A stretch of DNA of 64,000 bases from Gammaproteobacteria bacterium (lineage in GTDB: Bacteria; Pseudomonadota; Gammaproteobacteria; Tenderiales; Tenderiaceae), in assembly GCA_016200485.1 (NCBI GenBank), contig JACQEP010000005.1:1-64000 (forward strand), given 5' to 3'. The position numbers and the translations under genes are program-made. The notes under the pieces were generated by a model, which saw only the letters and a program-made list of their open reading frames with translations, was not told the origin of the DNA and searched no databases. Numbering within the stretch: the first letter of the stretch is position 1; the number at the start of each line of letters is the position of its first letter. Shown here one piece after another: positions 33,915 to 59,455 of the stretch.

Positions 33915-33976
33915 TGTGTCGCCTGCGGCGACGGCTTGGTGGGTTACGCTGCTACGCCGCTAACCCACCCTACATT
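33915..33976 (-). repeat. Two-hairpin dispersed repeat, copy B
   Basis: On the minus strand: TGTAGGGTGGGTTAGCGGCG...GTAACCCACC, then GTCGCCGCAGGCGAC. This is homologous to copy A at 26081 over about 55 bp. It lies directly after the stop of the carbonic anhydrase gene. It also shares the TGTAGGGTGGGTTAG end with the element at 37677-37793. Confidence 0.72.
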
Positions 33977-37044: not shown

Positions 37045-37389
37045 TCAAACGACAAGCTCCATGTCAGCAATGTGCATTTGATCGCCATCGAGCAGACGGG
37101 TGTTGTCGCTCTGGCAATGGCTGCAATGCATATGCTTGAGATCGCCCTCGGATTCACAGCCGCAATCGCGGCACTTAAAGCGCAAGGGGATCAGCCGCAC
37201 AATCAGTTCAGCCCCTTCGGCAATTGTGCCATCGGAATTATGGGGGAAAGCCTGGCGTAGTTCTTCGGGATCAATCCCCGCCAGCGGGCCAATATCGAGC
37301 GTGACGGATTTTACTTTGCGGGCCTTGTGTTCCTGGGCAAAGGCCTCTATCTGTTGCAACAGGGATTTGCATAACGAATGTTCATGCAT
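37045..37389 (-). CDS. hypA: Nickel insertion protein HypA
   Basis: 114 residues. The N-terminal MHEHSL supplies the nickel ligands (His2), and the zinc finger has CRDC and CSHC (about residues 74-95). It delivers Ni to the hydrogenase large subunit, usually with HypB, which is not in the window. It overlaps hypC by 8 bp. The fuller frame extending upstream is a shadow. Confidence 0.95.
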   Translation of the reverse strand: MHEHSLCKSLLQQIEAFAQEHKARKVKSVTLDIGPLAGIDPEELRQAFPHNSDGTIAEGAELIVRLIPLRFKCRDCGCESEGDLKHMHCSHCQSDNTRLLDGDQMHIADMELVV

Positions 37390-37627
37390 CTGCCAATTTC
37401 TCCATTGCCAGTCTCTCCATGTCATCGAACAATTGCCAGCGCGTGCGGGCCTCGCTGGCGTCAATCCTTTGTATGGCATGTCCCACATGCACCATCACAA
37501 AATCACCGACCTTTAGCGTTTGATCTGCCAGCAGAAATAGATCGACCTCGCGCGTAATGCCTTTGGACTGACACCGGGCGCGGTGGCCATCAATGGCCGT
37601 AATCTCCATAGGTATTCCGAGGCACAT
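37382..37627 (-). CDS. hypC: Hydrogenase maturation chaperone HypC
   Basis: 81 residues beginning MCLGIPMEI, with the essential Cys2, and HVGHAIQRID-type centre. It carries the Fe(CN)2CO unit with HypD and hands it to the apo-large subunit. First gene of hypC-hypA-hypD, all overlapping or nearly so. No hydrogenase structural gene is within the window. Confidence 0.96.
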   Translation of the reverse strand: MCLGIPMEITAIDGHRARCQSKGITREVDLFLLADQTLKVGDFVMVHVGHAIQRIDASEARTRWQLFDDMERLAMEKLADA

Positions 37628-37676
37628 AACTCAGTATAGCTTCAATACCATTAATTTAGGCAAATAAGCTATAAAA

Positions 37677-37793
37677 TGTAGGGTGGGTTAGTGTTTTTTG
37701 TGTAACCCGCCAAGTGTGCTTGTATTTAATGAGTGCCTCGCGGCAAGGCTGGCGGGTTACGTTGCGAAAAGCTCACAACTAACCCACCCTACA
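37677..37793. mobile_element. 117-bp MITE-like element
   Basis: Terminal inverted repeats of 16 bp are perfect: TGTAGGGTGGGTTAGT at the left (37677-37692) and its complement at the right (37778-37793). Inside lie subterminal repeats GTAACCCGCC (37702-37711) and GGCGGGTTAC (37751-37760). There is no coding capacity. The right end gives the stop codon TAG of the next gene. The ends are shared with the repeat at 33915-33976. Confidence 0.7.
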
Positions 37794-39348
37794 TCGAGTT
37801 TTTCAGGTGGTTTATCAAGGTGCGGGCCGCAGTGTCCATCCCGGAATCAATCTTGATGATCATGTCTGCTTCATCATCAGTCAACGGTTCCTGGGTAGTG
37901 AGTTGCCGGTCGAGGATTTCGAGGGTGGCTTCGGAGGCATCGCGGGCTTGCTGCTGGCGCTCCATGACCCAGTGCCGCAACAGCTGTTCATCAGCATAAA
38001 AGTGAATGATGATGAATTTAATGCCGAGTTCGCGAGCCAGGTGTTGAAACAGTTCACGCTCACTTCGTTTAAGAAACGTGGCATCGACCACGACTGGCCA
38101 GCCACTGTTAATGACGGTACGCGCCAGCTCGGCGAGATACCGGTAGGTGCGTTGGCCGGCATCGGGGCTATAGATGCCGCTACCGGGGGCAGAATCAGTC
38201 CGTGCATCGGGACTTAATCCGAAAAGGCGCTTACGTTCGACATCGGAGCGCAGGCGAATCAAGCCATAATGTTCCAGCGCTGGTTGGGTGAGCGTGGTTT
38301 TGCCGGATCCGGACACGCCGTGGGTAATGATTAACGGTGTCTGATGTGGGATGGTGTATTGTTCCGCCAAAGCGATATAGCGGCGATAGTCACGCAATAA
38401 CGTATCGCGTTGTTGGGGCGTGATGTCTTTTTGTTCCATCCGAATGACAGTGACCTTGGCCCGCACCAGGGCGCGATAGATTTGATAAAAGCGCAGAACC
38501 GCTAAGCCAGAATAATCACCGCTATAGTGTAAATAGGTGTTGAGATAACGCGCCGCAAAGTCCGGTCGGCCACGTTCGGCGAGGTCCATGGTGGTGAAGG
38601 CGACTTCGCTGATGATATCAATCCAGCGCAGGTTGGCGTTAAATTCAATGCAATCGAAAATGACCACCTCATTATCCATCAGCACCATATTGGCCAGGTG
38701 CATGTCACCATGGCAATTGCGGATGTAGCCATTCGCTTTGCGTTCGGCAAAGATGTATTCCAGACGTTGGAAGGTATTTACGCTCCATTCTTGTAAGCGA
38801 GACAGCGCTGCTTTATCAGCGCTGGATTCGAGTAACGGTTCAATGTGCAGAAAATTATCGGTGACCGGCTTGAAAATGGCTTTGGCTGTGCCGTGTGGAC
38901 TTTCGGTCGTTGCAACTTCAATGCGTTGATGAAAGGCGGCGACGCGTGCGGCCAATTGATCGATATGTGCGGGTAGCAGTTCGCCACGGGCTAGCACCCG
39001 ATCCAGTTGTTGTGGCTGATCAAATTGCTTCATCTTCACTGCATATTCGATGGCATCGCCGTCGCCCTCTAGTCGTGGCGAGGCCTCGCTACCAGTAATT
39101 GCTACCACCTCAAGATAAAGTTGCGGTGCCAGGCGGCGATTGAGGGTCATCTCCTGATGGCAATAGTGGCGACGTTGCTCGAGGGTGGTGAAATCGAGAA
39201 AACCAAGATCGACCGGTTTTTTGATCTTATAGGCGTAAGGGCCGGTGAGCAGCACCCATGAGATATGGGTTTCAATCACCTCAAACCCCGTGACCGGATG
39301 GTCAAAGAGCGCGGGATTTTGCAGGGCGGTGAGCAGGCGGCCGGTCAT
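37789..39348 (-). CDS. Kinase-like/P-loop ATPase fusion protein
   Basis: 519 residues. The N-terminal part (about 1-320) is an aminoglycoside phosphotransferase-like kinase fold with CHGDMHLANMVL and IFDCIEF, the catalytic and metal loops. The C-terminal part (from about 335) is a P-loop NTPase/kinase with GVSGSGKTT, as in the conserved family annotated as bifunctional APH/ATP-binding protein. The substrate is unknown; antibiotic modification is not implied. The stop codon and part of the last Met codon lie in the MITE-like element. Confidence 0.85.
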   Translation of the reverse strand: MTGRLLTALQNPALFDHPVTGFEVIETHISWVLLTGPYAYKIKKPVDLGFLDFTTLEQRRHYCHQEMTLNRRLAPQLYLEVVAITGSEASPRLEGDGDAIEYAVKMKQFDQPQQLDRVLARGELLPAHIDQLAARVAAFHQRIEVATTESPHGTAKAIFKPVTDNFLHIEPLLESSADKAALSRLQEWSVNTFQRLEYIFAERKANGYIRNCHGDMHLANMVLMDNEVVIFDCIEFNANLRWIDIISEVAFTTMDLAERGRPDFAARYLNTYLHYSGDYSGLAVLRFYQIYRALVRAKVTVIRMEQKDITPQQRDTLLRDYRRYIALAEQYTIPHQTPLIITHGVSGSGKTTLTQPALEHYGLIRLRSDVERKRLFGLSPDARTDSAPGSGIYSPDAGQRTYRYLAELARTVINSGWPVVVDATFLKRSERELFQHLARELGIKFIIIHFYADEQLLRHWVMERQQQARDASEATLEILDRQLTTQEPLTDDEADMIIKIDSGMDTAARTLINHLKNSM

Positions 39349-51328: not shown

Positions 51329-52016
51329 GGTTATGTTTGATCTGAGGTGGTACTGTTGTACCTGATGCCAAACGGTGTGCCCAGCGTGTGGTTTCCGGTA
51401 ATCGAAAACGGGTGGTGCAGGCCATCACATAATGAATCGCTGTTGCCAGGCTGATTTTGTGGCCAATGGAAATATACAACGGCTTAGTACCGGCGCGACT
51501 CCGTAATACAGCGCCAATGATTTCTCCCTTGTCGATTAATTTAGTCCATGTGCCGCGTTGTTCAGGGCAAGGAACATGGATGCCTACAAGACGTGTTTTT
51601 GCCACACCGATAGTTGCGATATCGGTGCAGAGTCCTAGATGGCAGGCAATTCCTAAGCGCCGCGGATGCGCCAATCCTTGGCCATCCACCAGGATCAGTT
51701 CGGGTAGTCGCTGTATCTGTTTGAGGGCATCAAGTATTACCGGTATTTCCCGAAACGAAAGCAAGCCGGGGATATAGGGGAATGTGGCTGGGCGGCGGGC
51801 GATTGCATAATCCAACAGGTTTAATTCGGGGAAACTGAGTATCGCAACAGCGGCGCGCGCAATGGTGCCGTTATTTTCAAAGCCAACATCAACGCCGGCA
51901 ACGGTAGCTGGTGTAGGAAAGCAATCATGGGTGATGATATTTGCGGCCAATTCCTTTTGCAAGGCGATGGCTTGTTTGGGGCTCAATTCCCAGGAATATG
52001 GGTAGGGGTGATTCAT
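51312..52016 (-). CDS. nfi: Endonuclease V
   Basis: 234 residues. It nicks DNA near deaminated bases, mainly inosine. Catalytic acids are in VAGVDVGFE, PYIPGLLSFRE and LVDGQGLAHPRRLG; GVAKTRLVG and TRWAHRLAS near the C-terminus are also conserved. The ATG lies in the centre of a palindromic repeat, and the TGA lies in another copy of the same repeat, so both ends of this gene are made of the repeat. The N-terminal MNHPYPYSW is not family-typical, in line with repeat-derived codons. Confidence 0.94.
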   Translation of the reverse strand: MNHPYPYSWELSPKQAIALQKELAANIITHDCFPTPATVAGVDVGFENNGTIARAAVAILSFPELNLLDYAIARRPATFPYIPGLLSFREIPVILDALKQIQRLPELILVDGQGLAHPRRLGIACHLGLCTDIATIGVAKTRLVGIHVPCPEQRGTWTKLIDKGEIIGAVLRSRAGTKPLYISIGHKISLATAIHYVMACTTRFRLPETTRWAHRLASGTTVPPQIKHNRRGDS

Positions 52017-52027
52017 GAATCACCCCT
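52002..52027. repeat. Palindromic repeat at the nfi start codon
   Basis: GTAGGGGTGATTCATGAATCACCCCT is a perfect palindrome over its inner 24 bp. Its central ATG (minus strand, 52014-52016) is the start of nfi. Same family as 51301-51328. Confidence 0.82.
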
Positions 52028-59419: not shown

Positions 59420-59455
59420 GCCCCAGTAGGGGCACGGCGCGCCGTGCCCCAAATT
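59420..59455. repeat. Palindromic repeat GGGGCACGGCGCGCCGTGCCCC
   Basis: A perfect 22-bp palindrome (about 59428-59449), preceded by CCCAGTA. It lies between DUF3943 and the convergent MFS gene. It has the GTAGGGGC start seen in other dispersed palindromes of the window. Confidence 0.65.

Follow-up and report, generated by a model that had tools for sequence, protein, structure and literature searches.

A short inverted-repeat element lies between the end of an APH-AAA_33 fusion gene and a hypC-like gene in the window, i.e., the whole 64,000-nt stretch that was analysed (contig JACQEP010000005.1); the features are collected in Table 1. The two ends of the element form a perfect inverted repeat of 17 nt (arms 37676-37692 and 37778-37794, 100% complementary), one base longer than the 16 bp given in an earlier note on this DNA, which had also correctly described inverted repeats nested within the element (11-nt arms 37702-37712 and 37750-37760, 100% complementary). 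The note saw no coding capacity, and we found no sign of any, although a + strand ORF (37733-37999) partly overlaps the element; a repeated inverted-repeat unit without sign of coding is thus supported. The element folds well both as DNA (z = -7.0) and as RNA of the - strand, the sense strand (z = -8.2), with 0 of 200 shuffles as good in either case. No Rfam family matched between 33000 and 39500 at E up to 1.

Table 1. Features of the element and its surroundings; positions are those of the window
Feature	Position	Strand	Details
REP doublet (probable REPIN), two GTAG REPs head-to-head, tags outward	37676..37794	.	117 bp from TGTAG to CTACA; 17-nt inverted repeat
Left REP	37678..37711	+	Tag GTAG 37678-37681; stem arms 37682-37690 and 37703-37711
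Right REP	37751..37792	-	Tag (CTAC on +) 37789-37792; stem arms 37780-37788 and 37751-37759
Remaining inner hairpin TGCCTCGCGGCA	37734..37745	.	Window copy
APH + AAA_33 fusion gene, 519 aa	37789..39348	-	ORF; Pfam AAA_33 5.8e-36, APH 3.3e-07
TAG stop codon of the APH-AAA gene	37789..37791	-	From the REP tag
hypC-like gene, next downstream, same strand	37382..37627	-	ORF; Pfam HupF_HypC 1.2e-23
Single family member	33915..33974	-	REP stem arms 33961-33969 / 33938-33946; second hairpin 33918-33932

Further copies of the end, looked for in the light of the earlier note, were abundant. The end TGTAGGGTGGGTTAG occurs at three sites in the window when up to 2 mismatches are allowed, all three of them exact (0.03 expected), and the 3.06-Mb genome holds 30 exact copies and 41 with at most 1 mismatch, compared with 0 for a reversed-pattern control. 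One of the sites is the repeat at 33915-33974, which has the end in common with the element, as claimed earlier, and has no second, inverted end. All 30 exact ends consist of a GTAG tag and a palindrome. The search pattern covered the first stem arm only, and the second arm (TAACCC[AG]CC or a close variant), which lay outside the pattern, follows in 30 of 30 ends; hence, each end is a GTAG REP, a layout tabulated under that name in the available text of PMC2817692 and PMC3733652. Two further GTAG-tagged perfect palindromes with 9-bp stems, at 52002-52025 and 59426-59449, were seen in the window, where ~0.2 would be expected.

An inverted partner (at most 3 mismatches) accompanies 13 of the 30 ends, at 117-153 bp end to end, and the other 17 are single. 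Full doublets have the order REP, hairpin, spacer, hairpin, REP. The window copy is shortened (117 bp vs the usual ~128-131 bp): one inner hairpin remains, the second one known from full-length relatives is absent, and the stem of the left REP has 8 of 9 positions paired plus one G-T.

The APH-AAA ORF ends in ...LKNSM*, and its TAG (37791-37789) falls within the repeat, so that the right end does supply the stop, as had been noticed. The accompanying proposal that insertion had shortened the protein was rejected. The AAA_33 domain is present in full (profile 1-143 of 143), and the tail past a conserved [IV]D[SA] motif measures 17 residues, the same as in two of seven repeat-free homologues of the same family (17, 17, 18, 20, 21, 21, and 25 residues), the other five having 18-25. 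In length, the C-terminus thus equals that of repeat-free homologues, an outcome that the note had named as evidence against its proposal. The TAG in the REP tag incidentally acts as the stop of this gene, and the protein is not shortened. Open frames of 100 codons or more take their stop from three of the 30 REP ends; the recipients, in all of which Met is the last residue before the stop, are the APH-AAA gene, a gene of the Ham1 family (L013), and an exonuclease gene of the RNase_T family (L017). Such donation is already published, since PMC3733652, in the part available, states that GTAG REP termini often give a TAG stop (TAG is called opal there). The finding in the window is therefore an ordinary one, a REP doublet at a gene end with the tag doubling as stop, and an example of stop donation without a change in length.

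We then considered how the doublet folds. Covariation was scored on an alignment of 27 doublets from 33 oriented readings; L175, L177, L219, L229, and two readings of L231 were left out, and the window copy lies outside the alignment because it did not satisfy the orientation rule. Across the 27 doublets, the local hairpin structure pairs in 97.7% of cells, and 7 of 33 local pairs show changes on both sides (0 of 500 shuffles; at most 2 in slid controls). Of the five covariation measures, one fell short of significance, namely the number of further pair types (75 of 500 shuffles). End-to-end pairing shows changes on both sides in 0 of 24 pairs; as 15 of the 24 never vary, it is still a possible fold. 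Covariation among these relatives thus lends support to the predicted local REP hairpins.

These data bear on the term MITE-like, used in the earlier note. A repeated inverted-repeat element it is, and the perfect terminal repeats, small size, lack of coding, many copies, and conserved interior would all suit a classical MITE, i.e., a deleted insertion sequence whose 17-bp terminal inverted repeats would be used by a DDE transposase to move it. However, no target site duplication of that kind, predicted at 2-8 bp, was found at the 13 doublets examined (direct repeats of 0-1 nt at the exact borders, and 2-4 nt with borders shifting by 2), 17 of 30 ends stand alone, all 30 consist of a GTAG-tagged palindrome, and covariation resides in local rather than end-to-end pairs. 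We consider a classical MITE highly improbable.

In most ends, a second small hairpin follows the REP stem, with a stem of at least 5 in 20 of the 30 ends (mean 4.9 vs 3.5 in shuffles). In this genome, a GTCGCC second hairpin is present in 10 of 17 single ends vs 0 of 13 doublet ends (two-sided Fisher 0.0011). Given this contrast, the singles of this genome are not simply decayed doublets; the view of single REPs as decayed doublets, expressed in the available part of PMC3116915, leaves the contrast unexplained. A separate subfamily of singles was also considered and rejected, since in named genomes the GTCGCC hairpin is absent from all 18 singles as well as from all 48 doublet ends.

Enzymes that could move such repeats are encoded in the same genome, which has nine Y1_Tnp matches. 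Both proteins scanned (L034 and L038) matched NCBIfam NF047646, REP-associated tyrosine transposase (RAYT), each with 197 bits (cut-off 80). Eight of the nine loci (L032-L039) have GTAG repeats on either side, of several types and partly recognised by eye, which amounts to eight RAYT-like genes with such flanks in one 3.06-Mb genome. The nearest flanking REP, GTAGGTCGGGTTAG at L038/L039, differs from the REP studied here by 2 bases, and the change is matched in the other arm; it has 11 exact copies, four of which flank the L038/L039 genes, and two of its singles (L251 and L259) carry the second-hairpin module seen in singles of the REP studied here. We also noted a related insert (GCGCGACGG...CCTAGTCC) in the loops of the REP ends L020, L022, L024, and L028 and of a REP beside the L038 RAYT; the L028 match is partial, its inner stem being different.

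Taken together, we regard it as likely that the window element is a REP doublet (REPIN) that a RAYT moved to the end of the APH-AAA gene. Three points here are inferred: movement of this copy by a RAYT, the identity of that RAYT, and arrival through insertion. A REPIN comprises two GTAG-tagged REPs head-to-head around a spacer with small hairpins; REPINs are non-autonomous, and RAYTs are believed to copy them in the form of single-stranded DNA. RAYTs, which are HUH/Y1 enzymes related to IS200/IS605, recognise the GTAG and stem-loop and leave no target duplication. For the E. coli, Stenotrophomonas, and Marinomonas enzymes, PMC8266576, in the text available, describes the GTAG and stem-loop as involved in recognition and cleavage. 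One copy would have landed between the 3' end of the APH-AAA gene and hypC, and the in-frame TAG of its tag would now end the gene, with at most the last one or two residues swapped.

Related loci were inspected for an empty site. None was found at the L151 locus in G003-G009 (both flanks were read in 5 congeners) or at the L149 locus in G031, every gap being occupied by other sequence; at the L148 locus in G032, the two flanks are on different contigs. One of the occupied gaps at the L151 and L149 loci holds a related single REP and another holds a different GTAG REP. At L157-L166 (the locus of G007:C7) and L173, what fills one and the same intergenic gap differs between all congeners read, other REPs being among the occupants, and the occupant turns over fast.

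A kept regulatory element, compatible with the REPIN reading, would be a hairpin that shields or terminates the APH-AAA transcript or modulates downstream hypC, with the TAG as part of that role. The strong fold of the sense-strand RNA fits such a role, as does the location between two same-strand genes, which is a usual REP position according to the available part of PMC3733652; yet there is no terminator-like site in 37400-38000, no such repeat stands in the 127 bases read downstream of the gene at seven homologous loci, and the window copy is decayed. We therefore think a kept regulatory role unlikely.

In other genomes, the same doublet occurs inside larger elements. Among 74 distinct doublets, 13 carry arms like GAATGGCACTTACTTAAGC on both flanks (at most 6 mismatches of 19), in units of 181-244 bp (the MITE being roughly 185 bp); seven others have one arm only, and one further doublet lies too near a contig end. 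At random places of the named loci, an arm-like match was obtained in 16 of 2,925 cases. The arms match the ends of ISPen1, an IS4-family element, as printed in the available text of PMC7378034. Examples of a doublet inside an ISPen1-like-armed MITE in named Beta- and Gammaproteobacteria are L187, L201, L202, L215, L231, L236, and L237, among others. Outside the arms, 7 of the 13 two-armed elements have 11-mers that agree at no fewer than 9 positions, vs 0 of 156 mismatched pairs, and agreement stands out at a length of 11 alone (mean 0.71 vs 0.18-0.28 at 6-10, 12, and 13; 0.33 in mismatched pairs). At L178, L213, and L224, the flanking 11-mers are inverted rather than direct (10-11 of 11), as if these elements had inserted mid-palindrome, e.g., in terminators. 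The flanks of the three remaining two-armed elements are neither clearly direct nor inverted. Arm/core junctions are alike in all of the matches listed (14 of 20), so a single capture of the doublet by a MITE is likely.

The doublets of Sulfuricella (Betaproteobacteria) and of a Muproteobacteria MAG are 98% identical. Wrong binning of MAGs may be the source of this identity; the titles of Sulfuricella T08 and of the Sedimenticola strains, however, do not label them as MAGs. No autonomous partner of the outer-arm MITE was present among the loci examined, 16 viral contigs included, and the literature searched held no report joining MITE, REP, and IS4.

Capture and carriage of the doublet in other genomes are well supported. 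As a tentative extension, which we hold plausible though somewhat doubtful, a REPIN lineage was captured in an ISPen1-like IS4 MITE, and DDE transposition carried the doublet between Beta- and Gammaproteobacteria (up to 98% identity); REPINs would thus be seedable horizontally, and the bare doublet would then be amplified by resident RAYTs with near-matching REPs. An origin of the window copies by the MITE route is possible. If this account is true, REPINs, whose inheritance is described as predominantly vertical in the available part of PMC8049555, could gain horizontal seeding. The MITE-borne copies matter more than the window element, as they hint at a route into new genomes for a repeat that lacks a transposase of its own.

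The window element could itself be the core of such an ISPen1-like MITE that has lost its outer arms. The two-armed doublets elsewhere, 7 of 13 with 11-bp duplications, and the match of their arms to ISPen1 would favour this. However, the flanks of the window copy differ from the arms at 7 and 9 positions of 19, near chance (112 of 3,000 random windows of the same genome reach 7 or fewer), and among seven doublets from this genome, two arms occur in none and a single arm, at the limit of 6 mismatches, in one (L001). Loss of arms from such a core at this site is, in our view, very unlikely, and we retain the REPIN reading.

The exact end is present in 14 of 274 genomes of the class and in 7 of 11 genomes of the family. 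A longer pattern returned 74 stretches from GTDB contigs, whose titles point mostly to Gammaproteobacteria, in some cases to Betaproteobacteria, and in six to Alphaproteobacteria. Doublet L001 had no match among plasmids and phages at E 0.001; L178 with its flanks gave weak partial matches to 10 plasmid records at E up to 1. A search for named relatives with the APH-AAA protein returned nine stretches, none a relative. The literal end TGTAGGGTGGGTTAG did not occur, in either orientation, in the literature searched.

Among known systems, the closest are the REPINs, or head-to-head GTAG-REP dimers, as described in the available parts of PMC3116915 and PMC3733652. The likeness extends to the GTAG tag, the palindrome, the inverted doublets, and the structured spacer, as well as to the position at gene ends, the TAG given to neighbouring genes, and the RAYTs in the genome. 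Unlike those systems, the family described here has the stem GGTGGGTTA and a four-hairpin doublet of ~128-131 bp. Nor was a RAYT seen with exactly this REP, GTAGGGTGGGTTAG, among the loci read, which were part of the matches in this genome, the 11-genome family, 11 further genomes, and the 74 named stretches (one search gave loci for 30 of its matches). The GTAGGTCGGGTTAG REPs of the L038/L039 RAYTs share the layout, the second-hairpin module in two singles, and the loop insert, but differ in two stem bases, compensated in the other arm, and in number (11 exact copies vs 30 here). The ISPen1-like MITEs of other genomes have the same doublet as core, with outer arms GAATGGCACTTACTTAAGC and 11-bp duplications that set them apart from the window copy, where the arms are absent. 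A REP family with a covarying four-hairpin doublet of ~130 bp, mostly in Gamma- and Betaproteobacteria, is added to a known kind.
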